DNA from: a virus
DNA length: 29,215 nt
IMG/VR virus record: IMGVR_UViG_3300005099_000038
Span: 1 to 29,215 of that record
Direction: 5' to 3' (one strand)
The position numbers and the translations under genes are program-made. A model generated the notes under the pieces. That model saw nothing but the letters and a program-made list of their open reading frames with translations. It was not told the origin of the DNA and ran no database searches. Shown one piece after another: positions 1 through 26,000 of the stretch. The first letter of the stretch is position 1; each line of letters begins with the position of its first letter.

Positions 1-207
1 TCCTTGATAGGAGTTGAGTGTGCTTCCATCTGAAATCGCTTTCACTCCTTTTGCTGAATTATAAATCCCAACCGTAAAGCCAAAAGAAGTCTTATTAAAG
101 AAGTAATTCACAATATCATAAAGAACTCTGTCATATTCGCTTGAATAAATGTGAATTAATGGAAATACACCTCTTATTGTTGCGTCAAATTTATCCAAGA
201 AATTCAT
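1..207 (-). CDS. Probable AAA+ ATPase, N-terminal part (runs off the left edge)
   Basis: The frame is open from an ATG at 207 to base 1 (69 codons, no stop), so the gene continues outside the window. AGGGAGGTG lies just upstream of the ATG. The visible protein begins MNFLDKFDATIRGVFPLIHI and continues with SSEYDRVLYDIVNYFF. This resembles the N-terminal lead-in of Ycf46-like AAA+ ATPases, where a 'yPLIyI.t.EedRv' stretch precedes the Walker A domain. No Walker motif is visible because the domain would lie beyond the edge, so the call is a pattern-based inference. It is the last visible gene of the short leftward cluster. One copy of the dispersed 14-bp motif (31-44) lies inside it, encoding K-A-I-S. 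Confidence 0.4.
   Translation of the reverse strand, partial: MNFLDKFDATIRGVFPLIHIYSSEYDRVLYDIVNYFFNKTSFGFTVGIYNSAKGVKAISDGSTLNSYQG
31..44 (+). repeat. Dispersed 14-bp near-palindrome, copy 1 (exact)
   Basis: TGAAATCGCTTTCA: arms TGAAA and TTTCA around TCGC. It lies inside the partial AAA+ gene, where it is read as K-A-I-S on the minus strand. Confidence 0.8.
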
Positions 208-218
208 GCCACACCTCC

Positions 219-329
219 CTATCCGCAGTATATTTTTTCACATTGTTTATTACACTCATTTTTGAACGGACAATATTCACATTCAGTCAAAATCTCAATT
301 CTTCCGTTGATAACTTTTAAAGTAAGCAT
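219..329 (-). CDS. Small Cys-rich protein, possible metal-binding knuckle
   Basis: This is a 36-residue protein starting at an ATG preceded by AAGGAG six bases upstream, which is the best start. An in-frame ATG at 413 would lengthen it to 64 residues but has no ribosome binding site and lies deep inside the upstream gene. The C-terminal half carries five cysteines in the order C-x2-C-x5-C-x3-C-x4-C (starting CEYCPFKNEC). This looks like a Zn- or Fe-S-binding cluster; a similar CxxC...C spacing is seen in Cas4/RecB-type nuclease clusters, but there is no nuclease domain here. It overlaps the 3' end of the preceding gene by 35 bases, which suggests translational coupling. Function unknown. Confidence 0.6.
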   Translation of the reverse strand: MLTLKVINGRIEILTECEYCPFKNECNKQCEKIYCG

Positions 330-813
330 ATATCTCCTTGAACATCTCATCGGGGGCTTTCCCGAGCAACTCATAGACTTTGATGATTGTTGCAAATAGT
401 TTCTTTTTTTCATAACCTCTCTCCAAATAAGAGTATATTTTTTTCTTATCTTTGTTTTCTATGGCTTTTATTATTTCTGGCACGAGCTCTTTATAAATCG
501 CAAATTCAAGTTTTTTCTTTGGAATAAGAGTTTTTGTGAACTCCCAGATTTTGTCATTGAAGAACAAGTCTGGATGAGGAAAATCTAACTTTGTGATTGG
601 AAAATAAGAGAATTCATTTTTTATTTCTTCATAAAATTTAGTCATCCATTTAATTCTCTCCTCTGCTTCTTTACCAAGTTTCTTTTCCAGTTCTTTCAAT
701 TTCTTCGAATAACTCTTTCTGAATTTTAAAGGATAACCATTGTCAATGAGACATTTTTTATAAAACATCACAACGGTCGGGTTGATTATTTCAGCTGGAT
801 GGAGGATTTTCAT
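295..813 (-). CDS. Hypothetical Lys/Glu-rich protein, first gene of the leftward cluster
   Basis: This 172-residue protein starts MKILHPAEIINP. An ATG at 834 would add seven residues, but it lies upstream of the -10 box (823-828), so 813 is preferred. With a start site predicted about seven bases after the -10, the ATG at 813 would be almost leaderless, and no Shine-Dalgarno sequence is visible. The protein is charged, mostly helical in appearance and cytosolic (no signal or membrane segment). I recognise no family. Its position directly behind a strong sigma70-type promoter, divergent from the nuclease/sigma/terminase cluster, suggests an early or regulatory role, but that is inference only. 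Confidence 0.7.
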   Translation of the reverse strand: MKILHPAEIINPTVVMFYKKCLIDNGYPLKFRKSYSKKLKELEKKLGKEAEERIKWMTKFYEEIKNEFSYFPITKLDFPHPDLFFNDKIWEFTKTLIPKKKLEFAIYKELVPEIIKAIENKDKKKIYSYLERGYEKKKLFATIIKVYELLGKAPDEMFKEIYAYFKSYQRKN

Positions 814-822
814 CTTAATAAT

Positions 823-850
823 ATTATACCACAAAAAAAGGTTTTGTCAA
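823..850 (-). promoter_or_regulatory. Leftward sigma70-type promoter P1
   Basis: On the minus strand a perfect TTGACA (850-845) is followed after 16 bases by a perfect TATAAT (828-823). A TG at 831-830 gives an extended -10. The predicted start is about 815-817, only two to four bases before the ATG at 813, which implies a near-leaderless transcript. Confidence 0.75.
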
Positions 851-884
851 CCCCCGCCGAAAAAATTTTTGAAAATTTTTAAAT

Positions 885-913
885 AAAATAATTTAAATAA
901 AAAGTTTTGTCAA
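885..913 (-). promoter_or_regulatory. Possible second leftward promoter P2
   Basis: A second minus-strand TTGACA (913-908) is followed after 17 bases by TATTTT (890-885), a 4/6 match to TATAAT. It would give a leader of roughly 65 bases before 813. It is weaker than P1 and may only be a binding half-site. Confidence 0.35.
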
Positions 914-927
914 CAAATTTGACAAAA
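905..927. promoter_or_regulatory. Inverted repeat, operator-like, overlapping two -35 boxes
   Basis: TTTTGTCAA (905-913) and TTGACAAAA (919-927) are perfect inverted arms around CAAAT. The same half-site recurs alone at 842-850. The repeat covers the -35 of the rightward promoter and of the second leftward promoter, so a dimer bound here could block both. Confidence 0.5.
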
Positions 928-946
928 AGAGATTTTGCATTAAATT
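919..946 (+). promoter_or_regulatory. Rightward sigma70-type promoter
   Basis: TTGACA (919-924) is followed after 16 bases by TAAATT (941-946). The predicted start falls at about 952-954, on the ATG at 953, so this transcript also looks leaderless. No good Shine-Dalgarno sequence is seen before 953. Confidence 0.6.
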
Positions 947-952
947 AAAGAT

Positions 953-1285
953 ATGAACCTGAATAGGCAAAGAGGAAAAAGAGCACAGAAAAAGATTGCC
1001 GAAAAGCTTAATGGTCTCGATATAGGTATTCTTGGGAAAGTAGACGTCCTTACAGAACATTTCATTGTAGAAGTCAAAGATAAAGCAAAGTTCGTAGGAG
1101 AAAAGTGGCTTGAGCAGGTAGAAAAGCATAAAGATAGAAAAGAATTCAAAGGAAGAAAATGTTTAGTGATAGTTCATAAAAGGGGGAGAAGATATGAGAA
1201 TAGTATTGTAATGATGAGGCTCAAGGATTTCTTAGAGCTGTTAAATGGACTTTTATCAAGAACTGGCAAAATATCAGATAAATAA
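953..1285 (+). CDS. PD-(D/E)XK-type nuclease, Holliday junction resolvase-like
   Basis: This 110-residue protein has the core of a PD-(D/E)XK nuclease: Asp31 in GKVDVL, then Glu40-Val41-Lys42 in FIVEVKDK on the next strand, followed by CLVIVHKRG. A helix with basic residues precedes the core. Small proteins of this kind in phages are usually annotated as Holliday junction resolvases or packaging-related endonucleases, clearing branches before packaging. The gene is first in a rightward cluster with a sigma-like gene and the terminase small subunit, which fits a packaging or late-phase role. The ATG at 953 lies at the predicted transcription start with no clear ribosome binding site. The 3' end overlaps the next gene by 41 bases. 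Confidence 0.65.
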   Translation: MNLNRQRGKRAQKKIAEKLNGLDIGILGKVDVLTEHFIVEVKDKAKFVGEKWLEQVEKHKDRKEFKGRKCLVIVHKRGRRYENSIVMMRLKDFLELLNGLLSRTGKISDK

Positions 1286-1730
1286 GAGAGAACTGAGAAA
1301 GCTGTATTGGAGATGGAAAATTCTAAAGAAAAAGGAAATAAAAAGCAAGATAATAAATAGTTTCTTACCAATGGCATTGAAAATCGCAACGAAAATCTCA
1401 GAAAAATTTCACAACATAGAGCTGATGGAACTTTTCAATGAAAGCTACCTGATTATAGATAAAGCTCTTGATTACTATAACCCAAGCCGAGCTGAGCTAT
1501 CTACATTCGTGTATCTCATGTTGAAATGGAATTTAAAAAATTTTGTATTCAGACAGCATGCTCCAGTAAAATATTCAGCCAAACAAAAACAAAGAATGAA
1601 GAAGGACGGAGTTTCATTCAATCCTCTTTATCTATCAGAAGTAGAGGACGACTTCTTTGTTTACAAAAAAACTCCAGAAGATATTTTATATGAAAAGGAA
1701 TTGAAATCGCTTTCAAAGGAGGAGAAATGA
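1245..1730 (+). CDS. Sigma-70 region 2-like protein
   Basis: This 161-residue protein has a central segment (about 60-105: LMELFNESYLIIDKALDYYN then PSRAELSTFVYLMLKWNLKN) that matches sigma region 2, the part that binds the polymerase clamp and the -10 element ('DLxQeGxxgLxxAxxxFDxxrgxxFsTyaxxxI'). No region 4 helix-turn-helix follows: the rest is a basic linker and an acidic tail, so -35 recognition is missing. It may be a minimal phage sigma factor for late genes or a co-factor, which is inference. The start overlaps the nuclease gene by 41 bases with only a weak GAG upstream. Its last codons contain a dispersed 14-bp motif copy (1702-1715) directly followed by the ribosome binding site of the terminase gene. 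Confidence 0.6.
   Translation: MDFYQELAKYQINKRELRKLYWRWKILKKKEIKSKIINSFLPMALKIATKISEKFHNIELMELFNESYLIIDKALDYYNPSRAELSTFVYLMLKWNLKNFVFRQHAPVKYSAKQKQRMKKDGVSFNPLYLSEVEDDFFVYKKTPEDILYEKELKSLSKEEK
1702..1715 (+). repeat. Dispersed 14-bp near-palindrome, copy 2 (exact)
   Basis: An exact copy in the last codons of the sigma-like gene (K-S-L-S phase). It directly abuts AAGGAGGAG, the ribosome binding site of the terminase small subunit, 11 bases before its ATG. Confidence 0.85.
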
Positions 1731-2173
1731 ATTTCTTAGGCTACAATTTAGAAGAATTAGTAGAAAAAGAGAAATACATCAAAAAGCTGTCTCCAAAGAG
1801 AAGGAAATTTGTAGAAGTATTCTGCACTACTCTGGACATAAGTAAGACAGCAAAAATGCTTGGAATAAAAGTCAGAACTGCTTACAAGTATCTACAAAGA
1901 GAGGATGTCCAGAGAGCTATACAATATACCCAAGACTTGATTTCTTTCAGGAATGCAATAACACAAGATTATTTTGTAGAGAAGCTAAAGGAGATAATCG
2001 AAGATAAAAAAGTGCGTCCTTCCGAAAGAATTGGAGCTCTACAACTACTTGCAAAGATAACAGGACATATCAAAGAAAAGCCAATTGAAACTCAACAGCT
2101 TGTTATCCTGAAGCAAGAGGGATTAAGAAAAGAGGAAGATGTTCCCACAATTAAAATAAAGACGGAATCTTAG
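1727..2173 (+). CDS. terS: Terminase small subunit
   Basis: This 148-residue protein has an N-terminal helix-turn-helix (about 24-62, SPKRRKFVEVFC then ISKTAKMLGIKVRTAYKYL). A middle helical region follows (YFVEKLKEIIED...RIGALQLLAKITG), the usual layout of small terminases that recognise the packaging site and stimulate the large subunit. It starts with an ATGA overlap with the sigma-like gene and a strong AAGGAGGAG. It is the last gene of the rightward cluster and its end overlaps the convergent virion-protein gene by 23 bases tail to tail. The large terminase subunit does not follow, which is unusual; it is presumably outside the window, perhaps upstream of the portal. Confidence 0.75.
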   Translation: MNFLGYNLEELVEKEKYIKKLSPKRRKFVEVFCTTLDISKTAKMLGIKVRTAYKYLQREDVQRAIQYTQDLISFRNAITQDYFVEKLKEIIEDKKVRPSERIGALQLLAKITGHIKEKPIETQQLVILKQEGLRKEEDVPTIKIKTES

Positions 2174-3749
2174 TTAGCTCTCTATATCTTTCAATGACAG
2201 GCTGAGTTGCTCTTCTTATTCCTCTTGCTCTAATTGGAGGAATGAGACCGTGATATTCAAGAACTTTCTCATTAAATTCTTCTATGTCCTCTAACACTTC
2301 TCTTAAATCCTCGTAATTATCAGCACGACGATACTTTTCATAAAGTTTCTTTCTCCATTCATTGAAGGCTCTTTCTATCCTCATACCAAAATATCTATCA
2401 TCCTGAATCTTGGCAAGACTTACTGGTCTAAATCCAAGAGACCTTAATACGATTTCAAGTCCAGTCAACTTATAAGGTTCTCCTGTCTCCGCTTCAATGA
2501 TTGGTTTACCGTATCTCGTCCTTAATCCTTCTGTAGCCAGTAATCCAGATTGGAAGAACATAGATAATCCCATAGGAAGTAAGTAAGATAAACCAGCTAC
2601 TATTTCTTCATCTGCCACACCCCTTGGCCCTGTTAATAAGTCTCTCAATCCTTCTAATAACTCTCTTCCTCCTATTAAGCCACGCTGATATACTCCTTTA
2701 TAAACTCCTAAGAATATATCTGCTAATGCGTCAAATGATGTGCCTTTAGGAATTGGAGCTTCAACTTTTAAAGAAGAAGATAAATCAGCAAGTCCTACGG
2801 CACAAGGAACTCCCCTTGTAACAAGGTCAGCAACAGATTCTCCTCCCAACTTACTGAGAGTATTATAAACCATCAATCTCAGTGGTTTACCAGACAATCT
2901 CTCAAAGACATCTGCTATATCGTCAAAGAAAGGCATTGCCTTCAATCCGCCAAGAATTCCAAACATAAGGAAGGATAAAGCTAACTTTTCAAATTCTCTC
3001 TTTCCTACCCAGTCAACATACAAGCCAAATAGATTAGCAATAAATCCTTTCAGAGTAATAGGTAAGGACATTATAGCTCCAAATGGAGTTCCTGGATTAG
3101 CCCAGTAAGGACGATTAGCTCTGGAATAATCCATAAAAGTTCTTTCTACTATATGTCTTGCTACTTCGCTCACAACATTTACATTTACATCTCTTGGAAG
3201 TAAGTGTTTAGAAATCGCTATAGTGGCTATCAATCTACCTAAAGATTCAGCATACTTGAACATAAACATAGATGAGCCAAAGACATAATGCATAGTTTTA
3301 CCAAACAGATTCATTCCTTCTTCTCTTAACATTTGATAGAAAGAACTTTCTATCTTTCCATGATTTATCAAATCTTGAATTACTCTTAAGGTATCTACAT
3401 CAATATCGGAAGCTCCATCATGAATTGCTTTTTCTATATCCACCTCTGATAAATCTCTTTTAATCCATCCTTTTTCCAGATACATCTTCAAAGTTCCATG
3501 AGCATCACGGAAAGTTTCTTTAACAGCTCTTGGGAGTGCCTTGAAATACTTTGTAGGTCTGATTCTATATTCCATTCTCCCAGCGATTTCAAGCTTAGGT
3601 AGAAATCTTGTTAACTGATTTATCAATTCTGCTGGACTGCGAGCAGTAGAGGACATAGCAACAACTTGACAAAATTCAGGAAGGAATGTAGTAACAAGGT
3701 TTGTATAGTTAAGGAAAGCAGAAGATACACGGTAGCCAAGATAATACAT
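2151..3749 (-). CDS. C-terminal part of the giant internal virion protein (separate frame)
   Basis: This 532-residue frame is probably not an independent gene. The ATG at 3749 has no good ribosome binding site. The preceding frame ends in an unnatural Cys/Trp-rich tail, whereas this frame begins YYLGYRVSSAFLNYTNL, which reads as the natural continuation. It contains several hydrophobic helices (around residues 225-280) and ends in a charged helical region after LEIVLRSLGFRP, a C-terminal feature I associate with large podoviral internal proteins. The likely role is an ejection-apparatus protein released into the host with the DNA. If expressed alone it would be a separate virion protein. See the finding on the frameshift. 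Confidence 0.6.
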   Translation of the reverse strand: MYYLGYRVSSAFLNYTNLVTTFLPEFCQVVAMSSTARSPAELINQLTRFLPKLEIAGRMEYRIRPTKYFKALPRAVKETFRDAHGTLKMYLEKGWIKRDLSEVDIEKAIHDGASDIDVDTLRVIQDLINHGKIESSFYQMLREEGMNLFGKTMHYVFGSSMFMFKYAESLGRLIATIAISKHLLPRDVNVNVVSEVARHIVERTFMDYSRANRPYWANPGTPFGAIMSLPITLKGFIANLFGLYVDWVGKREFEKLALSFLMFGILGGLKAMPFFDDIADVFERLSGKPLRLMVYNTLSKLGGESVADLVTRGVPCAVGLADLSSSLKVEAPIPKGTSFDALADIFLGVYKGVYQRGLIGGRELLEGLRDLLTGPRGVADEEIVAGLSYLLPMGLSMFFQSGLLATEGLRTRYGKPIIEAETGEPYKLTGLEIVLRSLGFRPVSLAKIQDDRYFGMRIERAFNEWRKKLYEKYRRADNYEDLREVLEDIEEFNEKVLEYHGLIPPIRARGIRRATQPVIERYRELTKIPSLF

Positions 3750-6700
3750 AGCAGGCAGTTAAAGCTCTTACTTTATAAACAAATGAGGCAAGAGGAACGT
3801 GGGGAGCAGTAGTAGCTTCAACATACTTATCTATAAGAGATTTAAGTTCTGGGTCTTCAATGAATAAATCTTTAAGCTGTGGACTTTCGTAGGCTTCTAA
3901 TACTCTATTCAAGAAAAATTTATTTACAAGGCTTCCAGTCATTCTGATATGATATTCTTTTGTAACATCAATGACATCTTTTCTATATCCTTCAATAACT
4001 CTTTGAGAGAACTCTGCTGGTAACAATCTCCTATGGAGTCTCCTCGCAAGAGCATAAGCAACATCTGCATACATAGAATAAAGAGCTTGTGGGAAGACAT
4101 CTCTTAATAACTTCTGTGCCTCTGGGTCATCAGTTCTCAAAGCAAGACTTCTGATGAAATCAAATGCTTCATAAGGAGACATTTTATCGATAGTCCTCTC
4201 AGCTTTCGGAGGCTTCTTGCCAACCATAATGATATAATCTGGAGTTTTACCTTTCTGTATAGTTTCTCCAATAATAAAATCAGACAGAGATTTTTCACTT
4301 CTATGCCAGTCTTCAGTTCTAAATTCCATCACTTCCTTCTCTTTCTCAAGTCCTTCCTTAACAGCTTTATAAATCTTATAAATCTTTAAAAGCTCATTCT
4401 TCTGTGCAAAATCGCTCTTTCTCCTATCAGTATCCCAATAACCAATCTCTACATATTTCTGTCTTCCTCTCTTGTCCGTATATTTCACAAATAGTCTGAC
4501 CTCATAATCTCCATTCTGCCTTACGAGAGGAGTATAAAAACTTTCATCAAGTCCTTTAAGAGTGTAGGTAGCTTTAACAAGATTGTTGGTCATGAAGGCT
4601 TCAATCGTCCTAAAAACTTCCTGATGCTCTTTACTCAAGTCAGATAAATCCCCTTCCTTCTTATATTTCTCTGGGTCTCCTCCAAACATTTTCAAAATTT
4701 CATCACGGTATTGATACCAAAGCTTCTCTGGCTCGTGTCTCATATCATTAATAGCAACTCTTCTAAGTCCTCTCCTACCAGCAGTTTTAGTTCTCGTTAT
4801 TTCCAATTCTATCATCTCTTTTATTTCATAATCATAAAGCCTAAACAATTTGTCGTGAGCTTCAGTTCTTATGTGAGTTAACATAGTAAGAAGCCTGTCC
4901 TTGACATCTCCAGAGATGTAATTCATCTTCTCGAATGTATTCAGAAGTCCTCTCAACTTAATCCATCCAATATCAAATATAGCAGAAAAAGTCATAATGG
5001 CTTCTATGTCATAATAATTCTTTGCCTTATCAACAATATCTTTCAATGTAGAAATGTCGCTTGCAGATAAATCAGGATACATTTCTCTGACTTCTTTTTC
5101 AAACTCAAGAGGATACCTTCCTTCCGCATTGTAATACCAGATGAGCTTCTGAGCTATATCATGAAGCTCAGGATTCTCTTTTTTGAGATTCTCAAAAGAA
5201 TTAAGAAATTCCTGTAAAGGTCTCATGGTCGTCTCATTCACTCTGCCAACACTTTCAGAATAATAGTTATGGAAGACAGTTAGAATATCATGATATTTTG
5301 GATAAATGGCTACATTATAGAACTTACGGAAGATTGGATTTTTCTCCTTACCAAAATACTTTCTACGGAATTCTCTTTCCTCTTTGGAGACAGCTTCTAC
5401 CTTACCTCCAAATGTTCTTTGTAGCCATTCTCTCAATCTGTAAGGAGCATTCTCTCTGAAGAATTCTACAAATCTATCCTGTGCTTCACTGAGTTTGGTT
5501 CTGAAAGCGATTTCAAATTCCTCATTATTAAAATCGTCTCTTATTCTTTTAGCTATATCCCAGACGTCAGTGAAATAAGCAAGAGGAATTTCCTCTGGAG
5601 ATTTATATTCTCTGGCAAGTCTTCCAGCATAAATTTTATCAAATATATCATAAGCACTAACAAAGCCCAATCCTTTAAGAGCATTCCTTATCCTGTCAAT
5701 AATAGAAATCATTTTGTCAAAAATTCTCTTGAGAAAAGAAGGAGGCTGATATTTATGAAAGATATAATTTCCAAATGCCTCAGCTATTTCTTCTGTATTC
5801 TTGAATTTTGAATAAAGAAGTCTTCTGTCTGTCTCAGGAAGGAGAGGCTCAATCAAGTGATATAATTCGTGTCCAAATGTGATAAGACCATTGGATTTTT
5901 CCCCGAAGACAATTCCTATATATCTTCTATCTCCAAGCCTCAGAGCAAATCCAGAGAAAGGAACTCCAAGAGCTTTCCTCATATAAGCTACAACTGGACT
6001 ATATTCATTTCCTACAATAATACCAACCTCTTCTCCGAGAGCTTTGGCAACGACACTTTTCATAAATTGGAACATCTTTACTGGTTCGCTGAGAATAAGT
6101 GGGTCTTTCTTAGCCATCTCAATAGTTCTATAGTAAGCATCTTCACTTCTTAAGCCTTCAATCAGCTTGGAATATGCCTCATCAATTTGTCTATTTACAT
6201 CACTTGCCTCAATCATTTCAAGAAGTCTTACCTTTACATATTCAGCAGGATTTCTGAGAAAGTAAGAAACATCTCTATGCTGGGAAAGCTCCTCCTTAGT
6301 CTTAATGATATTTCTATCAAAATTTTCTGCAAAAGTATTTAAAGGCTCATCAGATAAGTCAAGAATCTTAGGAAATTTTTCCTTATCGGTAATCTTTACA
6401 ACTGCCTTTATGTAAGTATCCCAGAGCCTCTTAATTGGAGATTTTCCTCTCAAAGTTGGAAGTCCAATTGCCTCAGGCTCTAAAATCTCCAGGTCTTCTT
6501 TACCCTCCAAGAAATTCCTGAAATTCTCTGCGTCCACAATAACAAATTTTCTTTTCTCAGGAACAACCAAGTCAAGCCTATCAGTAAAAAATCGTCTAAT
6601 AGGAATGTCCTCTTTAAGAGTATCAGACAAGAAATCTTTGAGTTTCAGAAGTCTTGCCTCTCCAGTTTCTCCAAAGCTCAATATAACATAACCGTTAGGT

Positions 6701-9651: not shown

Positions 9652-10112
9652 TATTCTCTACCAAGATATTTAGAAAGGTGTTTGGCAAATGGACTTTCTT
9701 CAATTTTCTCTGGAGGGACAAGAGGTAAAGCTGAAGCAGTCGTAGGAGCTATCGCACCAGTCGGAGCGGAAGTCTCTCCTCCTACAGGTATTCCAGCAGT
9801 AGGTAATCCATAGGCACGAGAAATCATATTCACAAAAGCATAGAAAGGCTGTAATCTTCTCTCTATTTCAGTTACTTTCAGAAGAAGCTGTTCCTTTATC
9901 TTCGGGTCTGTCTCTTGCTGTAACGCACTTAAATAACTCTTCTGAAGAGTAAGAAGAGGTTCATATGCTTCAGTTAGAGCTTCAAATGGAGACCTTCTTT
10001 GAATCGCTCCAAGTAATCTAAAAGCATCAAGAATTGTAGATAAAACAAGTTTTATTCCAGCAGGAGTTGCTCTTTTATCACGAAATAAGCGGGATAAAGC
10101 TCCCCAATCTAT
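9651..10112 (-). CDS. Hypothetical virion protein lacking a canonical start codon
   Basis: A clear 153-codon protein is open from about 10112 to the TAA overlapping the giant protein's ATG. It reads IDWGALSRLFRDKRATPAGI, then helical KLVLSTILDAFRLLGAIQRR, then a Thr/Ala/Pro-rich part and PFAKHLSKYLGRE. A GTG at 9833 would leave only 60 residues and discard the best helical part. Between the in-frame stop at 10167-10169 and 9834 there is no ATG, GTG, TTG or CTG. The upstream gene ends TAATAGAT, so an ATA overlapping its stop is the positional equivalent of the TAATG junctions used elsewhere in this operon. A -1 frameshift fusion with the upstream gene or a one-base sequence error are alternatives. 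Function unknown. Confidence 0.55.
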   Translation of the reverse strand: MDWGALSRLFRDKRATPAGIKLVLSTILDAFRLLGAIQRRSPFEALTEAYEPLLTLQKSYLSALQQETDPKIKEQLLLKVTEIERRLQPFYAFVNMISRAYGLPTAGIPVGGETSAPTGAIAPTTASALPLVPPEKIEESPFAKHLSKYLGRE

Positions 10113-12507: not shown

Positions 12508-14144
12508 TATTCAAACGCTTCAACTATTTGAGCAGATAATCTTGCATTAGCCATAGCCCAAGCACACGCTCTATCCAGCTCACAATAAGTATAATAAGTA
12601 TCATACAAAGGCAAAACATAATTGTTATAATAACTGCCAGCACGATGAATAGCCATTAGAGACCTTTGAATATCAGCCTTTAGCCTATGAGAATAAGCCT
12701 TTGTATCATAATAAGTTCTCAAAAACTCTCTATTCAGTCTCAAATAAGTGTCAAGATAATCAGAATAGCCACGAAAATAAGCAGTTAGGATATTTGTCTC
12801 TCCTCTGAGCTGGGCAATATCAGCCTCAACTCCCAGCACATCTGCTCTTACTAATAAAGAAGAATATCTTGCTTTGATGCCTGCCCATCTGGCTTCAAAA
12901 TCCTTTTGTAAAGATTGAAGGACATTCTGTAATCTCTCAATCTCGGAATTCAAATAATTAACTCTTTCTGAATAAAGTTTTTCTCTCTCCTCTAAGACTT
13001 GCTTTCTGCTCTGAGCTATATCTTCTCTTGCTCTGGCTTCTTCTATCCTCGACATCGCTGTCATCTTTTCCACTAAAAGCCTATCTCTCTCAATATTCAA
13101 AGCTTCAATCATAGTCAGGATAACTGACATTTCATTGTAAAAAGTAAACATTCCTCTTAAATCTCTATTCAGAGAAGTGAGAAGAGCAAAATTTTTACTT
13201 TCCCTGCTGATATGATTAAGTCTGGCTGTGGCTTCCTGTTCTTTTAAAGTCCATTCCTCTCTCTTGAGAGTGAAATCGCTTTCATTCTTAAGAATAATCG
13301 TCCTTAACTGCTGAGAAAGATTGTCAAAAAAAGTAGAAAGCCAACGCTCCCTCACCCTCATCCTTACTTTCACATCAAATAAGGAACTGAAAAATCTAAA
13401 AAGGAAGAACTGCCTTTCCTTTTTAGACAAGTGCTTCAAGAATTTATCTCTTTCACTTTCTATAACAGCTCTCATCTTCTCAATAAGGACAGAAAGATTA
13501 TAAAATCCTTTCAGACTATCCAGAAACTCAGAAATAAGTCCTTTCACATAAGAATTTTCTCTCTCAAAATAAGGAAGAGGTTTCAAGCCAAGTGTAGAAA
13601 AAACATCAGTTTTCATAAAGCTTGGAGCTTCAAAAGAAAGACTAAATTTATCAAGCAAGTCAGCTTCAATATATTCAAGAGAATTCTCTTTTATTTTTAC
13701 ATCAAAAGAAAATTCTCCTACCACAAACTTCTCAATTTCTTTCAAAGTAGGTATCTTCCTATAAAAAGGAATATAGACACAATTACTTCCAAATGGAGTG
13801 AACTTAAACTTCTCATAATCAATCTCTGAAGGAGCTTCAGGCTTTTCCATATAGTCTGGAGCAGTCGGCTCTGGTATCTCTCCTGAATATGGAGAATAAG
13901 AAGGAATTGTCAGGCTTTCTAAATCTGGAATATCAATAGAGATAGGAAGAAAAGTAATCACTGGTTTTATTATTGTTGGAGTTTCAGGAGGAGAAGAAAT
14001 AAAATAAGGTAAAGAAGGTCTCTCTGGAATCTCCACCTGAAGCTGAGGAGGAGATAGAGAAGGAGGATGTAATTCTACCGTTTTCCCTGAAGGAATTTTA
14101 ATTCTCTCTGGAGGTGTCAAAAAAGCAAAAGGTATTCCGAACAT
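12507..14144 (-). CDS. Coiled-coil tail protein with Pro-rich N-terminus
   Basis: This 545-residue protein has about 125 N-terminal residues very rich in Pro (TPPERIKIPSGK, HPPSLSPPQLQVEIPERPSL). Long heptad-rich helices follow from about residue 200 to 480 (ERDRLLVEKMTAMSRIEEAR and many similar). It ends with a Tyr-rich segment (YYNNYVLPLYDTYYTYCELD). The layout parallels the preceding 472-residue protein and the two may be distant paralogues. Proteins of this type are probably extended tail or internal virion components. The start is two bases after the upstream stop. The gene contains an exact copy of the 14-bp motif (13271-13284, encoding NESDF). Confidence 0.6.
   Translation of the reverse strand: MFGIPFAFLTPPERIKIPSGKTVELHPPSLSPPQLQVEIPERPSLPYFISSPPETPTIIKPVITFLPISIDIPDLESLTIPSYSPYSGEIPEPTAPDYMEKPEAPSEIDYEKFKFTPFGSNCVYIPFYRKIPTLKEIEKFVVGEFSFDVKIKENSLEYIEADLLDKFSLSFEAPSFMKTDVFSTLGLKPLPYFERENSYVKGLISEFLDSLKGFYNLSVLIEKMRAVIESERDKFLKHLSKKERQFFLFRFFSSLFDVKVRMRVRERWLSTFFDNLSQQLRTIILKNESDFTLKREEWTLKEQEATARLNHISRESKNFALLTSLNRDLRGMFTFYNEMSVILTMIEALNIERDRLLVEKMTAMSRIEEARAREDIAQSRKQVLEEREKLYSERVNYLNSEIERLQNVLQSLQKDFEARWAGIKARYSSLLVRADVLGVEADIAQLRGETNILTAYFRGYSDYLDTYLRLNREFLRTYYDTKAYSHRLKADIQRSLMAIHRAGSYYNNYVLPLYDTYYTYCELDRACAWAMANARLSAQIVEAFE
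13271..13284 (+). repeat. Dispersed 14-bp near-palindrome, copy 4 (exact)
   Basis: An exact copy inside the 545-residue coiled-coil tail gene, read as E-S-D-F on the minus strand. Confidence 0.8.
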
Positions 14145-14146
14145 CG

Positions 14147-15565
14147 TTATGTAAAGCTCCTTATAATACTTGCAGATACAGAAGAGTAAGATATTGCCAT
14201 AGTTCTATTATACTCTCTCACACTATTTGAACCTATTCTCATTGCCTCAAGAGCTTTCCTAACTTTATTGTAAGTTTCTTCACCAAGTCTCTCATTATAA
14301 AATATAGTTTGATTTCTCAAATCCAGATAAGTGTCTCTCGTCTTAAATTCCTGCTCCCAATAATCAACAATCTGCATCTCTTGTTCCCTGAGAGACAAAA
14401 TTTTGTCATAAATCTCCTTTCTATACTCTGCTACAATCTTATCTACATCTACTCCATACTTTCTCAAATCTCCTTCGTATCTCTCTATCTCTGCTTCCCA
14501 TTGCTCCAATTTGGCTCTTAAGTCCGCAATCTCCGCTCTTATTTCACTCTCTTTAGCAGACAATCTTGCCCTTTCACTTCTTATCTTAGACATAACTGTA
14601 TCCAACTTAATGTCTTTAACAGCCTGCTGTGCCTCTACAGTCTCAAGAGAAGATAAATAAGTTCTAACTCTTGTCCTTATCAACTCAGAAAGACTATTCA
14701 CTCTTTCTATCTCAGCCCTAAATTTGCGAAGTTCGTTTTCATATTTACGCAATAAAATCCTATATTCCTCAAAAGCCAGATAGCCAAATCTTTCAAGTTC
14801 CATCAAATACTCGCTATAAGAAGCATAATAATTATTAAGAGCCTGCTTCTGTCTTTCTTCCAATTCTTTTTCAGTAATTAAAGCTCTTATTCTTTCAAAT
14901 TTCCTTCTCTCAATATTAACAAGCTCTCTATAAACATCATTGTAATAATCCTGAAGCTGAAGTAAAAATCTATACCTCAACAGAGCCACATTATAGCTAT
15001 TAACAGCATTTCGCATAATCAACTCATAAGTCTCATAAGTTATCCTGAAATCTCTTTCAAAAATATCCCTGTAAAGATTATTAGCTGTATAAACACGGTC
15101 AATAAAAGATGAAAGAGTTCTTACGATGACATCACGATGCTCTTCCATGTATCTCGTATAAAGCTCTGTCTCATCTCTCAAACTCTTCAAATAAAAATCA
15201 TTGATGGCTTTCTGATAAACTCCCGAAGGCAACTTATGTCCAAGTAAACCGAATGAGCTATTCAATTTTTTGAAATCGCTTGCATTCCTTCGGACAATTT
15301 CATTTCTCAAAAATTGATACTTATTGCAGGCATAGGAAGTCAAGTTATTAAACAGACGATAAAATTCGTCAAGACTATCGGACAGAATAGATTTGAAAGC
15401 AAGAGTATAATATTCAGTAAGAAGCTCATTGGCTTGTGGAGAAGGAATATCTGGAGGAGGAGCATAAGTATAAGCTTCTGGTTCAATGAAAGAAAGCTCC
15501 TCTATATCGTAGGTAAATATATCTATGTCTTTAAATTCTTTTCTAAAAGGAGTTGGCTCACTCAT
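14147..15565 (-). CDS. Coiled-coil tail protein
   Basis: This 472-residue protein overlaps the tail-fibre gene by four bases (ATGA) with GAGGAG upstream. It is almost entirely helical with strong heptad repeats (ESEIRAEIADLRAKLEQWEA and neighbours, about 320-400). A short Pro-rich N-terminal segment (YAPPPDIPSPQAN) resembles a reduced form of that in the following gene. The C-terminus ends in a Ser-rich patch (MAISYSSVSASIIRSFT). No enzyme motif is visible. It is likely a rod-like tail or internal virion protein. Two near-copies of the 14-bp motif (15046-15059 and 15271-15284) lie in this gene. Confidence 0.6.
   Translation of the reverse strand: MSEPTPFRKEFKDIDIFTYDIEELSFIEPEAYTYAPPPDIPSPQANELLTEYYTLAFKSILSDSLDEFYRLFNNLTSYACNKYQFLRNEIVRRNASDFKKLNSSFGLLGHKLPSGVYQKAINDFYLKSLRDETELYTRYMEEHRDVIVRTLSSFIDRVYTANNLYRDIFERDFRITYETYELIMRNAVNSYNVALLRYRFLLQLQDYYNDVYRELVNIERRKFERIRALITEKELEERQKQALNNYYASYSEYLMELERFGYLAFEEYRILLRKYENELRKFRAEIERVNSLSELIRTRVRTYLSSLETVEAQQAVKDIKLDTVMSKIRSERARLSAKESEIRAEIADLRAKLEQWEAEIERYEGDLRKYGVDVDKIVAEYRKEIYDKILSLREQEMQIVDYWEQEFKTRDTYLDLRNQTIFYNERLGEETYNKVRKALEAMRIGSNSVREYNRTMAISYSSVSASIIRSFT
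15046..15059 (+). repeat. Dispersed motif variant, 13 of 14
   Basis: TGAAATCTCTTTCA differs from the exact motif at one central base (G to T). It lies in the 472-residue tail gene, read as E-R-D-F on the minus strand. Confidence 0.45.
15271..15284 (+). repeat. Dispersed motif variant, 13 of 14
   Basis: TGAAATCGCTTGCA differs from the exact motif at one arm base. It lies in the 472-residue tail gene, read as A-S-D-F. Confidence 0.55.
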
Positions 15566-19302: not shown

Positions 19303-20307
19303 TTATTCATTTTTTTCTTTCTTGATTACAGTAGCAACCACACTATCTCCTAAATCTATGTTATTTCTATCAGCCCCAATTAAAAACCTGTTCCCATCAG
19401 AAACATTTACTTTACCAGAAATAAATTCTCCTCTGGCTTTCATGTCAAGTCTATCCTTACTGAATAAAACAACTTCTGCTCCTTTTGCCATAACTAACCC
19501 CCTTCTGCATAACCAAATAGCATTTTTATTTCCAAGCACAACTCCGCTTCCTTTAAGGCTTCCCACATCATATTCTACAAATCTCAAATTAAAAGGCTCT
19601 CCTTCAAGAGGAAAGCCCAAATATGTCTTGCTATCTGTAGAAATTATAATTGCCTCTTCGGTAGATAAGACAATATTTATCTCTTCTGGAAACTCAAAAT
19701 AGAAATAAGGAAGAACTAAGTCATAATAAAGAGCCTCCGTAAACCATAACTGCTTGCCTTTTGAACCAAATATTCTTCCTTTGAAAAAGCACAGATTTTC
19801 AACACGAGGCATAGGAATTGCTTCAGAAAGAGCATACTCAAAGCTATCCTTTGCAGTCTCAAAGGTAAAAGATTTATCAAATTTCCATTCTCTAACAGTC
19901 TCATTGCTTATAGAATAAACACCATTCCAGAACCTATTTGATATGTAAACATTGTCGCCAACTTTGACAAAATAAAATCTTGCATAAGGGCTGTCTGTCT
20001 TGGCAATCTGCTTCAGAGATTCATCTGGCAAAGAAAATTTGTATAGATAATCTGAACCGTTCTGATAAGAAAAAAGCAAATAGTTATTTCTATCAATCTT
20101 AAAAGGAGAGTGTGCAAAAGGCAAATCAACTATCTTCTTCAGCTTATAACGAGGTCTCAAAGAGCCATCTGGATAAATATCCATATTCAGAATTAGATAA
20201 GGGTAGCGGGCATCAGACTCAAGTCCTTTATTCTTCATTCCACGAAAAGAATTGAAAATTATATCTTTATAGGTTTGAGATGCACTGATTTTCTTTCTTC
20301 TTGCCAT
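19303..20307 (-). CDS. Tail hub / DNA stabilisation protein, P22 gp10-like
   Basis: This 334-residue protein starts at a TAATG overlap with the adaptor gene. After a basic start it is mostly beta strands with propeller-like repeats (NYLLFSYQNGSDYLYKF, VYISNRFWNGVYSI, GRIFGSKGKQLWFTEAL, AIIISTDSKTYLGF, AIWLCRRGLVMAKG). The 'GRIFG..g..LWFTEa' and 'w....GlvmakGae..lfs' segments are typical of podoviral tail stabilisation proteins related to P22 gp10, which cap the adaptor ring and hold the DNA in. The position after the adaptor gene fits. It is shorter than P22 gp10. Confidence 0.55.
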   Translation of the reverse strand: MARRKKISASQTYKDIIFNSFRGMKNKGLESDARYPYLILNMDIYPDGSLRPRYKLKKIVDLPFAHSPFKIDRNNYLLFSYQNGSDYLYKFSLPDESLKQIAKTDSPYARFYFVKVGDNVYISNRFWNGVYSISNETVREWKFDKSFTFETAKDSFEYALSEAIPMPRVENLCFFKGRIFGSKGKQLWFTEALYYDLVLPYFYFEFPEEINIVLSTEEAIIISTDSKTYLGFPLEGEPFNLRFVEYDVGSLKGSGVVLGNKNAIWLCRRGLVMAKGAEVVLFSKDRLDMKARGEFISGKVNVSDGNRFLIGADRNNIDLGDSVVATVIKKEKNE

Positions 20308-20921
20308 TACAACAGACCTCTATGAATAGCAGAAGGTCTTGGGACATCTTTATCTCTAACATGACGGGCTTTAAAGAAAGATACAAGACTAATAAAAGTG
20401 CTATAATTATATTGAGCCAGTTCCAGATTAAAAGTTTCACTATCAGCTTTCATATAAGCTCTCCATAAAACTCCATGCTCAAGAGCAGGAAGTAATTTTC
20501 TTGGTAAAGTAATCTCATCATCAAAAGTCAAGTCTCTTTCCTTTCCCACATAATAAAGACAAATGTCATAAGCCTTATCTGGGACAGGAGCAAGATGAAT
20601 GTAATTATCATAGATGCAATAATATCGAGGTTTTCCTCCTTGAAGAAATAAATTTTCTATCTCTCCCATAGATAGCTTGTAAATCATACTATTTTCACAA
20701 TAGACTGAAAATTCCCTATCAAAATCATCTGGAAGAGCATAACTTGAGGTATCTTTTTGGGTCTGGAAAGAATGCTTCTTCTCCAATAAAGGAATTTCGG
20801 TATAAATATAGCTAAGAACATCATTCAAGTAAGTAAGAAGCTCATCATCTCTCCATAAAAGAGGGTCGTTTGTGTCCGCCAGTTTGTCTCTTATATTATT
20901 CAAAAATTCCGAGACAGTCAT
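20307..20921 (-). CDS. Head-tail adaptor protein (P22 gp4-like)
   Basis: This 204-residue protein has MTVSEFLNNIRDKLADTNDP then LWRDDELLTYLNDVLSYIYT, the 'W.ddeLl.yLNd.l..i' signature of phage adaptor proteins that bind under the portal. The rest (SSYALPDDF, KPRYYCIYDNYIHLAPVP) also fits. It starts with an ATGA overlap with speD. AAGGAGG lies directly before the start, and an exact 14-bp motif copy (20932-20945) abuts that ribosome binding site. The gp10-like hub gene follows immediately. Adaptor, then hub, then fibre follows the assembly order of a P22-type tail. Confidence 0.65.
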   Translation of the reverse strand: MTVSEFLNNIRDKLADTNDPLLWRDDELLTYLNDVLSYIYTEIPLLEKKHSFQTQKDTSSYALPDDFDREFSVYCENSMIYKLSMGEIENLFLQGGKPRYYCIYDNYIHLAPVPDKAYDICLYYVGKERDLTFDDEITLPRKLLPALEHGVLWRAYMKADSETFNLELAQYNYSTFISLVSFFKARHVRDKDVPRPSAIHRGLL

Positions 20922-21310
20922 GTTACCTCCTTGAAATCGCTTTCATTCCAAGACAAATTTTTATAATCCACTCTCACATCTTTGCCAAAAAATACTTTTA
21001 CCACTTCCAAAGCTTTCTTCTCATCAAAAGATTTACAGGAAGAGATTTCAAGCCGAGCATAATTTTCTTCTGGCCAAGTATGTATGTAAATATGACTCTC
21101 AACAAGAACCATTCCAGCAGATAATCCATAACCTCCTCTCAAAATTCCTTTTATTGGAGTAGGGAAGTGAGCAACCTGTAAAGTGTGAAGAATAGGTGTC
21201 ATATCTATAAATTCAACAGCACGCACCAAAAACAATCTGATTATCTCTTCCGAAGACAATAATTCTGAAGGAGCATCGTAAATATTTACTAAAAGGGTCT
21301 GCCCCTTCAT
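20918..21310 (-). CDS. speD: S-adenosylmethionine decarboxylase-like pyruvoyl enzyme (SpeD/SpeH)
   Basis: This 130-residue protein is similar in length to the bacterial class 1B AdoMet decarboxylase. The autoprocessing site is intact: Glu71-Ser72-His73 in LVESHIYIHTWPE, where Ser72 would become the pyruvoyl group. His77 lies five residues after it and Cys92 twenty residues after it, the same spacing as Ser63/His68/Cys83 of the Thermotoga maritima enzyme. The enzyme makes decarboxylated AdoMet for spermidine synthesis, but members of this family have also evolved into ornithine or arginine decarboxylases, so the substrate cannot be read from sequence alone. No spermidine synthase gene is in the window. 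It follows three basic proteins and precedes the tail adaptor. The ATG has GAGGAG upstream. Confidence 0.85.
   Translation of the reverse strand: MKGQTLLVNIYDAPSELLSSEEIIRLFLVRAVEFIDMTPILHTLQVAHFPTPIKGILRGGYGLSAGMVLVESHIYIHTWPEENYARLEISSCKSFDEKKALEVVKVFFGKDVRVDYKNLSWNESDFKEVT
20932..20945 (+). repeat. Dispersed 14-bp near-palindrome, copy 5 (exact)
   Basis: An exact copy in the last codons of speD (E-S-D-F). On the transcribed strand it is followed at once by AGGAGG, the adaptor gene's ribosome binding site, with ten bases between motif and ATG. Confidence 0.85.
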
Positions 21311-22057: not shown

Positions 22058-22078
22058 CTTCCTACCTCCCACATTTTT

Positions 22079-23511: not shown

Positions 23512-23516
23512 TGTAA

Positions 23517-24044
23517 CTAAGCCACATATCTCAGCATATACATTATTTTAACAGTCTTCCCATTTTCAAGCGTAATAGGGCTATCAAGAACTGTTCTGTC
23601 TATGCAATGTATGTAATCAGTAGAAGTTCCACAACAATATAATCCTACTTCCCTTATTGTTACATCTGAACCAGTGTTATTTGTAAAGCTTCTATAAGCT
23701 GAAAGTTCTATTTTTTCACTATCACAAGTAGCAGAGTTTATAGTAACTGCTGAACAATCTAAATCCAGTTTACTTTCTAAAGCATAATCAGAGCATTTAT
23801 CGACAGCAGTAGAACCAGAGCCTATAACGATTCCATAGCTATTATTATTTTCTCCAGCATTTATTGCAAAAGTAGAATCATCATCATACCCACTATGCAT
23901 TCCTCCATCTACTTTTTTTACACTAACAGCCCTTTGCCCCCAATGTCTTTCTAACAACTGAAAGAATTGTTTTAATAAAGTGTTTGCTTTCTGCCTATAA
24001 ACTTTTCCATCCTTCTCAATTATAATCTCAATTGACAAACTCAT
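23517..24044 (-). CDS. Virion structural protein (fibre or decoration-like)
   Basis: This 175-residue protein overlaps the previous gene by 17 bases. The N-terminus (SLSIEIIIEKDGKVYRQKAN) leads to a beta-rich core with GIVIGSGSTAV, DYALESKLDLDCSAVTI, then ELSAYRSFTNNTGSDVTIRE and VGLYCCGTS. It ends LDSPITLENGKTVKIMYMLRY. The 'GsGsTaV...DyaL', 'R.ftNntg...v.EvGLy' and 'pi.l..G.t..v.Y.ir' segments are familiar from small phage fibre or neck proteins. Its architecture is similar to that of the 161-residue protein at 18806-19291. It lies between decoration-like genes and the lysis cassette. Confidence 0.5.
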   Translation of the reverse strand: MSLSIEIIIEKDGKVYRQKANTLLKQFFQLLERHWGQRAVSVKKVDGGMHSGYDDDSTFAINAGENNNSYGIVIGSGSTAVDKCSDYALESKLDLDCSAVTINSATCDSEKIELSAYRSFTNNTGSDVTIREVGLYCCGTSTDYIHCIDRTVLDSPITLENGKTVKIMYMLRYVA

Positions 24045-24333
24045 AACTAACCTCCACTGTCAGATTCTCCGAAAACTTGTTAACATCCTGTAAATTTATA
24101 TCATATCCACAACTTATAGCTTCACCAAACATCTGCACTTCCTTTTCTGCCTCTGAAACACACACCCTTAAACTATTTACCATTCTGTTATGAAATCTAT
24201 ATAATTGATAAACTTCTTTCTCAAGATAATTCAAGTAAGCTTCTATCCTTCTTATCCAATCTACATCTTCCTTATCAACAGCAACTTTTCTTCCAGTAGA
24301 AGATTCATACAATACAAGTTTTCTCTCACCCAT
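24028..24333 (-). CDS. Hypothetical helical protein
   Basis: This 101-residue protein starts LVLYESSTGRKVAV and has a central amphipathic helix (DWIRRIEAYLNYLEKEVYQL). Two cysteines lie in the second half. No signal, membrane segment or known domain is visible. It starts about eleven bases after the preceding stop with only a weak GAGGGA upstream and overlaps the following fibre-like gene. By context it is a virion or assembly protein. Confidence 0.5.
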   Translation of the reverse strand: MGERKLVLYESSTGRKVAVDKEDVDWIRRIEAYLNYLEKEVYQLYRFHNRMVNSLRVCVSEAEKEVQMFGEAISCGYDINLQDVNKFSENLTVEVSYEFVN

Positions 24334-24343
24334 CTTAAGTCCC

Positions 24344-24859
24344 TCATGCCAACTCTATTGGGTCATCAATTTCTACATCAATTGTGGTATCGGAAATAGC
24401 AACTCCTAACTTTTGGGCTATATATCCAGCAGTATTTGGAGGAGTATCAGAAACTCCGCCAGGAGTAGTTGCAGATAAGAAGTAATATTTCCCTGGAGTT
24501 AGCCCAGTCAACTGTGTATTGTGTCCATCGAAATGAACAGTAACATTGTTTCCTGCCGTTGCACTATCTAAGACATAACCGTGAGCAGGCTTGTTGCCTG
24601 AAGCATCAGCTTTTCTAACTTTTGTAGTTCCACTATCATCAAAAATATTTACAAAATCTCCAGCACTTAAATCTTCATAAGCAGGAAGAGCAATTGTATC
24701 TTCTCCCATACCAGCAGGCAATACAGAACTGTCAAGCTTTCCATCAGAACCGAGAGCTACAATCTTACCTGCATCACTTGAACCAGTGCTTTGAACAGTT
24801 GCCTCTTTTTCCTTAATCCTTCCAGTAGTTCTGTCGAAGCTTAAATATTTATCTGCCAT
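24344..24859 (-). CDS. Head fibre/decoration-type protein
   Basis: This 171-residue protein has AAGGAGGTG before the ATG. After an N-terminal region with AGKIVALGSDGKLDSSVLPA comes a compact beta domain (LSAGDFVNIFDDSGTTKVRK, GYVLDSATAGNNVTVHFDG, TGLTPGKYYFLSATTPGGVS, YIAQKLGVAISDTTIDVEID). This 'GkivaL..DGkld.s.lp', 'aGD.Vni', 'G.yyfLs..pG' pattern is typical of phage head-fibre or decoration domains displayed on the capsid surface. The next gene downstream of the coat, at 24874-25368, has a related C-terminal part (QRLGRV...IDLDEPI against QKLGVA...VEIDDPI). Confidence 0.55.
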   Translation of the reverse strand: MADKYLSFDRTTGRIKEKEATVQSTGSSDAGKIVALGSDGKLDSSVLPAGMGEDTIALPAYEDLSAGDFVNIFDDSGTTKVRKADASGNKPAHGYVLDSATAGNNVTVHFDGHNTQLTGLTPGKYYFLSATTPGGVSDTPPNTAGYIAQKLGVAISDTTIDVEIDDPIELA

Positions 24860-24873
24860 TTTTCTTCACCTCC

Positions 24874-25368
24874 TTAAGAGATTATTATTGGTTCATCTAA
24901 ATCTATCAAAATCTCATTATTTTTCAAAACTCTTCCTAATCTTTGAATAAACACCGCTTCATTATCAATACTTTGAACCATAGTTCCACTTTTACCCAAA
25001 TAAATAGGTTTAGAAACATCAAAATTAAATGAAGTATCCTCACATCTCCCAAAAGTTAACACTCTTACTGAGCCTCCTGGGTCAGCAGAATTCAGAGATA
25101 ACCCTAATATTTTCTCAACATCGCCGAGACTATCACAACTCGCATAATACAAATAGCCATCATTGCCAAGTTTCACTATCTTATGAGAACCTATAGTCTC
25201 TCCCGCTATTTTCTCTACAATAACTTTTTCACTACTAACGAGAGTATAAGGAATGACACCTTGAACAGTTGTCTTTAGAACCTTTGGACTTTCAATGACT
25301 GTCTTCAGAGTCTCACATTTCTCGACGGAAACTTTCAATTTACCTTCTTCCGTTATGATAACCCTCAT
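24874..25368 (-). CDS. Decoration-type structural protein, related to the next gene
   Basis: This 164-residue protein overlaps the upstream gene by four bases (ATGA), with AGAGGTG upstream. The N-terminal ~50 residues are Val/Lys/Thr-rich strands. The remainder (GETIGSHKIVKLGNDGYLYY, SVRVLTFGRCEDTSF, KPIYLGKSGTMVQS, FIQRLGRVLKNNEILIDLDE) resembles a small beta-barrel decoration domain and ends like its 171-residue neighbour. The likely location is the capsid surface or head fibre. An exact 14-bp motif copy ends 43 bases before this start codon. Confidence 0.5.
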   Translation of the reverse strand: MRVIITEEGKLKVSVEKCETLKTVIESPKVLKTTVQGVIPYTLVSSEKVIVEKIAGETIGSHKIVKLGNDGYLYYASCDSLGDVEKILGLSLNSADPGGSVRVLTFGRCEDTSFNFDVSKPIYLGKSGTMVQSIDNEAVFIQRLGRVLKNNEILIDLDEPIIIS

Positions 25369-25775
25369 TTACTCACCTCTGGGTCAACCACAATTTTCCC
25401 TTCTAAAACTCTGAAAGCGATTTCATCATTATAAACCTTAATATCATAAACATAAACACCTTGAGTTCCTTCTGAAACACTTGAAATTCGCACATTATCA
25501 GCAGATTTTGGATAAGGAGTAATATTTGAGGTCTCGCTCGGAGACAATTTAGCTTCTATAACTCCATTTGAAGGGTCTTTTATAGAACAATTAAAAACAG
25601 CTGTAGCAACACTATCATCATAATTCGCTTTCATCATCCCTTTAACCGAATAACCAGTTAAATCTATAGGGTTGCCATCTTCATCAGTTATCTGAATAAG
25701 AATATCCCAACTTTCTCCCTGTTTTGCCAATATATCTGTAGTCCCGTCCGAATTCACAAAAAATTTTAAAGGCAT
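25365..25775 (-). CDS. BppU-like Ig-fold structural protein
   Basis: This 136-residue protein starts after GAGGATAG. It reads AKQGESWDILIQITDEDGNP then IDLTGYSVKGMMKAN, with a later GVIEAKLSPSETSN and YVYDIKV...GKIVVDPEVSK. This is the pattern of N-terminal domains in BppU-like phage baseplate or fibre proteins ('qGd.w.l.i.i.d.dG.piDLtG.sv...'), an Ig-like beta fold used to attach other virion parts. It contains the 14-bp motif at 25412-25425 (encoding EIAF). Confidence 0.6.
   Translation of the reverse strand: MPLKFFVNSDGTTDILAKQGESWDILIQITDEDGNPIDLTGYSVKGMMKANYDDSVATAVFNCSIKDPSNGVIEAKLSPSETSNITPYPKSADNVRISSVSEGTQGVYVYDIKVYNDEIAFRVLEGKIVVDPEVSK
25412..25425 (-). repeat. Dispersed 14-bp near-palindrome, copy 6 (exact)
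   Basis: An exact reverse-orientation copy inside the BppU-like gene (E-I-A-F), 43 bases before the next start codon. Confidence 0.8.
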
Positions 25776-25787
25776 ACTATCCTCTGA

Positions 25788-25964
25788 TTATTTTTTCTCT
25801 TCCTTAGCCTCTACAACAGCTCCTTTATCTTTAGCTAACTTGCTATAATATTTCTTCTCCTCATCAGGAGTAAGCAGGACAATATCAGGGTCGTTTCTTA
25901 AATTCTCATTCCATACAAAAATAGCTCCAGTTTTTTTATTTTTGCAAAGTCTTCTTTTTGCCAT
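25788..25964 (-). CDS. Small hypothetical protein after the coat gene
   Basis: This 58-residue protein starts at an ATG preceded by GAGGAGGTGAAA. It begins MAKRRLCKNKKTGAIFVWNE, continues with PDIVLLTPDEEKKYYSK and ends in a Lys/Glu-rich tail. It is the first gene after the terminator that follows the major coat protein, and a 14-bp motif copy lies 22 bases before its start. A very small head-completion or assembly protein is possible. No family recognised, but the ribosome binding site and close fit with its neighbours support a real gene. Confidence 0.6.
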   Translation of the reverse strand: MAKRRLCKNKKTGAIFVWNENLRNDPDIVLLTPDEEKKYYSKLAKDKGAVVEAKEEKK

Positions 25965-25986
25965 CTTTTCACCTCCTCAAGATTTT

Positions 25987-26000
25987 TGAAATCGCTTTCA
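25987..26000 (+). repeat. Dispersed 14-bp near-palindrome, copy 7 (exact, intergenic)
   Basis: An exact copy directly behind the T-run of the coat terminator and 22 bases before the start of the 58-residue gene. It is the only fully non-coding copy and thus the clearest sign of a DNA- or RNA-level role. Confidence 0.85.

Follow-up and report, generated by a model that had tools for sequence, protein, structure and literature searches.

Dispersed 14-bp palindromes with phage-specific centres as probable landing sites for a phage-encoded DNA-binding protein

The IMG/VR virus record IMGVR_UViG_3300005099_000038 (29,215 bases, hereafter 'the window') contains seven exact copies of a 14-bp near-palindrome, TGAAATCGCTTTCA. 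These 14-mers are one instance of a feature that is widespread among bacteria-infecting viruses yet has so far drawn almost no attention, each virus having its own version; the dispersed palindromes are probably landing sites for one of the phage's own DNA-binding proteins. We put at roughly 55% the probability that they are binding sites for a putative dimeric, sequence-specific protein encoded by the phage, the best candidate being c12 (PHROG 17202), a family without known domains. The window is very likely a fragment and lacks the replication module.

A recount confirmed the copies listed in a preliminary description of this DNA: exact ones start at 31, 1702, 13271, 20932 and 25987 on the plus strand and at 5502 and 25412 on the minus strand, in mixed orientation relative to genes, and two one-mismatch copies start at 15046 and 15271. 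The weak copies at 3578, 25620 and 26639 are three mismatches away from TGAAATCGCTTTCA. With up to three mismatches allowed, and both strands of the near-palindrome counted, the window holds 30 matches for 5.3 +/- 2.5 expected. The runner-up independent 14-mers occur twice each, and none comes near seven.

Codon choice does not explain the copies. Called complete genes contain five of them, against a mean of 0.038 in synonymous-codon shuffles (maximum two in 1000), and codon-order shuffles of the window genes produced none. Together with the conservation described below, this bears out the earlier proposal that selection acts on the nucleic acid itself. The coding copies use two reading phases and not three, as had been thought: EIAF and ESDF represent the same phase (T-GAA-NNN-NNN-TTC-A) read on opposite motif strands, because the near-palindrome gives GAA-NNN-NNN-TTC on either strand, while KSLS (copy 1702) and KAIS (copy 31) represent the other. 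Chance or codon bias, in favour of which one might cite the four coding copies in a single phase, is refuted by the shuffles, the conservation of sites and the independent arrays found in relatives.

The sites are under strong purifying selection. Two related records, G229 and G224, align over 48 kb with 75.8% nucleotide identity; all 10 alignable G229 sites are exactly conserved in G224, against 4.1% of all 14-mers, and three of these 10 lie deep inside long genes. Between G245 and G223 (70.6% identity), 3/5 and 3/3 alignable sites are kept. The flanks show a weak symmetric AG...CT preference and nothing else. The sites are conserved and the flank preference is symmetric, hence the dyads would constitute an element read at the DNA level, by a putative dimeric protein.

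Arrays of this kind are a family trait with phage-specific centres. Relatives sharing capsid, portal or replication genes have 3 to 25 copies of TGAAA-N-CG-N-TTTCA per record, with at most 0.014 dyads expected in each record counted. Over whole records, TGAAAACGTTTTCA occurs 25 times in G226 (70.6 kb), 16 times in G245 (60.2 kb), 14 times in G224, 13 times in G229, nine times in G223 and six times in G256. Other records use other versions: TGAAACCGGTTTCA in G225 (nine copies, plus 22 one-mismatch copies with an identical centre), TGAAAACGCTTTCA in G227 (eight), TGAAATCGATTTCA in G220 (five) and TGAAAGCGCTTTCA in G221 (three). The centre is nearly constant within a phage and differs between phages, being AT in the 70-kb phage (25/25 copies), CG, TA, GC or AC elsewhere and GA/TC in the window; G218 and G233 are mixed. 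Most array-bearing records share capsid, scaffold, portal, adaptor or replication proteins with one another, and the structural ones with the window too.

The copies had been described as scattered through a late operon, but they are not confined there, as the arrays of relatives extend over the whole genome. All 14 copies of G224 fall in its family-phage part, with none in 77 kb of an unrelated co-assembled phage. This record (3300017593_000402 in IMG/VR) looks like an assembly join of two unrelated phages (1-77000 versus 77500-137000), the family-phage part having repeats at its ends. Many sites stand at gene junctions, 11-25 nucleotides ahead of start codons. Our IMG/VR scans specified a dyad upstream of a ribosome-binding site, left the base on either side of the central CG free, and hit certain records repeatedly. 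This pattern accounts in part for the closeness of sites to Shine-Dalgarno sequences, although it played no role in picking the three such sites of the window itself. In G226 (P = 0.005) and G229 (P = 0.04) the sites are spaced more evenly than at random, in the others not significantly so, and we do not claim regular spacing.

Since the scan loci were picked by motif, only isolates chosen by protein similarity give an unbiased frequency of arrays. We read 50 kb of each. Replication genes match those of Pseudomonas phage SM1, Rhodobacter phages RcTiptonus and RcZahn, Rhizobium phages L338C and RHph_TM16, Agrobacterium phage JP1, Aeromonas phage HJ05, Stenotrophomonas phage DLP_5 and several Vibrio phages. 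Each of the eight proteobacterial isolates examined that do not infect Vibrio has a TGCAA-N4-TTGCA array, with 4 to 24 copies per 50 kb (SM1 14, RcTiptonus 17, RcZahn 4, L338C 24, RHph_TM16 7, JP1 18, HJ05 10 and DLP_5 17). These arrays too show phage-preferred centres, and their central CpG varies or is missing (TGCAAC-NN-GTTGCA, TGCAATCAATTGCA), as seen in L338C, DLP_5, JP1 and the Vibrio arrays. The Vibrio phages had been taken as dyad-free, a view dropped when degenerate arrays were found: Ares1 and D4 have seven to eight TGCAATTAATTGCA-like sites versus 0.1 in shuffles. Despite the diversity of hosts, all arrays follow the plan TGnAA-N4-TTnCA. No dyads were found in Bacteroides phage BS162P1, which has relatives of the RecA, polymerase, helicase and single-stranded DNA-binding (SSB) proteins.

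Which protein might recognize these dyads? Plain clustering yielded no protein separating dyad-bearing from dyad-free phages. Iterated profile searches then revealed c12: it turned up in each of the 21 phages searched that have this module and bear dyads, and was not detected in BS162P1, which has the module and no dyads. In isolates, c12 usually adjoins a RuvC-like gene. A dyad lies 64-130 bp upstream of the c12 start in seven of the eight TGCAA isolates, whereas the background is 7% of genes with a dyad at -30 to -150; the chance of 7/8 is below 1e-6 by simulation, and no other conserved family approaches c12 in this respect. In TGAAAACGTTTTCA phages, the dyad is upstream of the gene preceding c12 (about 110 bp from that gene's start in G224). 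Judged by position, this arrangement looks like negative autoregulation of c12.

We compared an AlphaFold2 model of the G245 c12, built from a four-sequence alignment (predicted local distance difference test, 78; predicted template modelling score, 0.54), with the PDB in Foldseek; DNA-binding domains of ParB and Noc filled the top eight places, with probability up to 0.99 and E = 0.27-1. The Ares1 c12 weakly matches a Borrelia plasmid replication/partition model. We treat this possible ParB/Noc link as a lead only. The ParB-like gp90 of mycobacteriophage Catdawg was considered as a c12 relative, but profile comparison shows no relation.

We propose that c12 dimers would bind dyads spread over the entire genome, each array matching the c12 variant of its phage. 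The c12 gene belongs to the shared replication module, outside the 29-kb fragment, and we infer that the window's own phage encodes it. The protein would shut down its own promoter via the site just upstream of its gene, and would occupy the phage genome every few kilobases, coating or organizing the DNA as Noc or ParB do on chromosomes. That c12 binds the dyads seems to us rather likely. That it organizes DNA is a more tentative view, and that it blocks transcription a weaker one; we lean toward the former because no integrases were found, because sites occur in both orientations and deep in structural genes, and because the authors who described comparable repeats in Cluster O mycobacteriophages reached a negative conclusion on promoters for them (PMC4351075). 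In a bolder and more doubtful extension, a large group of lytic phages with the RecA/SSB/DnaB/PolA/AAA+ module, which infect at least six bacterial genera, might encode an autoregulated c12, not recognized until now, that loads at phage-specific dyads to package, mark or partition DNA, a viral counterpart of Noc/ParB with diversifying specificity.

Several observations weigh against c12 as the reader of the dyads. The window itself lacks c12, being a fragment. The nearest upstream dyad is kilobases away from c12 in RHph_TM16, G220 and G233, and about 5 kb away in Ares1 and D4. Foldseek E-values of 0.27-1 are poor, a second c12 model (the G227 member) gave no ParB/Noc match, and sequence searches of PDB and Pfam with c12 found nothing. 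Iterated profiles detected no c12 in Catdawg, which has dispersed 17-bp dyads; therefore another protein can do a similar job. Sites near Shine-Dalgarno sequences fit transcription or translation control equally well. Finally, no exact site occurs in 17 kb of the closest relative at 72-78% nucleotide identity, L128/L191. L191 (17 kb, without the 14-mer) does contain TAAAA-N4-TTTTA five times, versus 0.5 expected, possibly its own weakly diverged version of the site.

Could the sites instead act as roadblocks, where a phage repressor stops or damps elongation and so tunes operons, in the manner of stoperators in a lytic phage? The many sites at gene junctions 11-25 nucleotides ahead of start codons and the autoregulation-like site upstream of c12 would suit such a role, as would the phage-specific centres, since stoperator motifs likewise differ between Cluster A subclusters (PMC6550527). 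This is a serious rival, though in our view less likely than an organizing role: a lytic phage must transcribe its structural genes strongly, yet several sites lie far inside them, and the junction signal is partly inflated by the scan pattern as noted above. The stoperators of Cluster A (L5/Bxb1) belong to temperate phages, whose immunity repressor binds them as a monomer; they are 13 bp long, asymmetric and for the most part oriented the same way with respect to transcription (PMC6550527, PMC9283540). Both systems have many short sites genome-wide, a motif that differs by phage group and an autoregulatory site at the repressor locus, but here the sites are near-palindromes in both orientations, and a search for integrase (PF00589) returned no match in 15 related phage records. 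Of the stoperator-like array first suggested, the dispersed sites, predicted to be dimer-bound, thus stand, and prophage repression does not.

The leading idea had been a LacI-type protein of phage or host, and all seven window copies do fit the catabolite-responsive element (cre) consensus TGWAANCGNTNWCA of LacI/GalR operators and CcpA sites. The same palindromes also appear in papers on host sugar-acid regulators, Pseudomonas PtxS and GntR among them. However, related arrays vary at or lack the central CpG, and its dispensability in the isolates argues against a LacI-type operator. No LacI repressor was found either: the LacI helix-turn-helix (HTH) model PF00356 gave nothing above its family cut-off, whether in 19 related phage records or in the metagenome-assembled genome (MAG) linked to a relative. 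This MAG, a Campylobacteraceae bin that includes a related contig and is our host lead, may not represent the window's host. It holds no exact copy of the 14-mer, 200 relatives of the bacterium have at most four per genome, and neither MAG nor phylum is enriched, which makes a motif spread through the host genome unlikely, should the host be a campylobacterote. Each phage, moreover, has its own centre, with hardly any variation among its copies, and the common site plan holds across diverse isolate hosts. We therefore think it very improbable that the sites serve a protein of the host, whether of the LacI family (CcpA-like) or of the nucleoid, that the phage exploits or is burdened by.

Slightly less remote, though still improbable, is a role as replication, recombination or packaging marks for the AAA+ ATPase, helicase or RecA. 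The module is common to dyad-bearing phages, and the AAA+ ATPase is the sole protein found in common with Catdawg. Against this, BS162P1 has relatives of RecA, polymerase, helicase and SSB and no dyads, near-palindromes in both orientations are ill-suited to directional marks, and site proximity favours c12 (9/17) over AAA+ (4/15). A strict link between full-length AAA+ ATPase and dyads was dropped, as phages with short AAA+ proteins also carry dyads. The ATPase (L274:18010-19545 and homologues) has a degenerate N-terminal half and is common to these phages and Corndog-type phages; it may resemble the chloroplast/cyanobacterial Ycf46 family. Least probable of all, chance aside, is an RNA-level element, either a short hairpin by ribosome-binding sites or an RNase site. 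The 14-mer could form a 5-bp stem and several copies touch a Shine-Dalgarno sequence, but stem letters are invariant among exact copies with no compensatory changes seen so far, intragenic copies are found on both strands, no pairing is expected across the asymmetric GA/TC centre, and deep intragenic sites are conserved too.

The closest published case is that of the Cluster O mycobacteriophages (Corndog, Catdawg), in which more than 30 near-invariant 17-bp dyads, TGTTCGG-N3-CCGAACA, were reported per genome in 2015; they are intergenic and intragenic, have no preferred orientation and were stated to be of unknown function, in phages with no integrase or known lysogeny (PMC4351075). We counted 30 dyads of the published type in 49 kb of Catdawg. 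Both systems consist of many dispersed invariant dyads in phages without integrase (here 5-25 copies, not more than 30), and the AAA+ ATPase is homologous. They differ in site (17 bp and another half-site there, TGAAA-N4-TTTCA over 14 bp here) and in phage family; Catdawg has no detectable c12 and shares none of the other replication-module proteins. The c12 proposal also recalls Noc and ParB-parS, in which short palindromes along the DNA are bound by an HTH protein that marks or organizes it, and one of the two c12 models resembles their DNA-binding domains. However, the CTP-binding ParB_N domain (PF02195) is absent in most records, among them the TGAAAACGTTTTCA phages (G226, G245, G229, G224, G223 and G256) and G227, and a CTPase domain and ParA are known only from the Noc/ParB side of this comparison; the PF02195 and PF00589 searches rule out ParB and integrase themselves as explanations. 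In a literature search whose coverage excluded most subscription journals, these palindromes returned host-regulator and unrelated papers alone, and dispersed phage dyads returned the Cluster O papers alone. Provisionally, then, the 14-bp dyad arrays have not been described before.

Within the window, the copy at 31-44 (+) is in a minus-strand frame truncated by the window end (..VKAISDG.., read from sequence). The copy at 1702-1715 (+) is at the 3' end of a sigma-like gene and 11 nucleotides ahead of a terminase-small-subunit-like gene, whose Shine-Dalgarno sequence it touches. The sigma-like protein (1245-1730) is a small sigma-70 region 2-like product (phrog_351, weak Pfam match), which suggests that late transcription is directed by the phage. 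Two copies are intragenic, one at 5502-5515 (-), deep in a 1980-aa gene (FEIAFR), and one at 13271-13284 (+), within a 545-aa gene (NESDFT). The one-mismatch copies are TGAAATCTCTTTCA at 15046-15059 (+) and TGAAATCGCTTGCA at 15271-15284 (+), the latter variant being identical in an intein of the relative L128/L191. The copy at 20932-20945 (+) is at the 3' end of a speD-like gene and touches the Shine-Dalgarno sequence of the downstream SU10-type adaptor gene (20307-20921, -). The speD-like gene (20918-21310, S-adenosylmethionine decarboxylase-like) is a possible polyamine-related auxiliary gene, and has a by-eye look-alike (L298:11701-12135) on the other phage co-assembled in G224. The copy at 25412-25425 (-) has the next gene start 44 bp downstream, and that at 25987-26000 (+) is intergenic, with the capsid gene and its terminator-like hairpin on one side and the next gene on the other. 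The major capsid protein (26040-26984, -) served as a query for finding relatives. The window ends in the 3' part of a truncated portal (podoviral head-tail connector) gene (28577-29215, -), and it contains no tRNAs.

Two contigs are nearly identical to the window. L126 keeps both sites (25412 and 25987); L127 keeps one with one base changed (TGAAATCACTTTCA at the 25987 position) and has a further exact copy inside a portal-gene intein. Two relatives, L127 and L128/L191, have a portal gene split by an in-frame intein that is missing from the window and L126, and the L191 terminase gene has another intein (regions L127:1523-2572, L191:5271-8264 and L191:8264-10651). G221 shares two of its three sites with the window at the same gene junctions with a different centre: TGAAAGCGCTTTCA at 9674 is in the position of the 20932 site, and it also occurs at the junction of the 25987 site. 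Searches with capsid, portal and other proteins led to contigs that were short and near-identical, or to distant marine phages lacking dyads, and no dispersed dyads were found in the stretches examined of marine relatives matched by capsid or portal (33-48% protein identity). Among the matches listed in an exact 14-mer scan of IMG/VR, most were single chance occurrences. Two other phage contigs, L219 and L241, have 11-12 copies of TTTCA-N3-TGAAA within 10-13 kb, which is not the same element.

The 14-bp system is kindred to the Cluster O dyads and occurs in phages that have been widely sequenced and whose hosts are tractable (Pseudomonas, Rhizobium, Agrobacterium, Rhodobacter, Stenotrophomonas and Aeromonas). 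To the published case it adds a site rule, TGnAA-N4-TTnCA with a phage-specific centre, as well as purifying selection on the sites and a candidate binder with a putative autoregulation signature. The function of such repeats is thereby open to direct testing.

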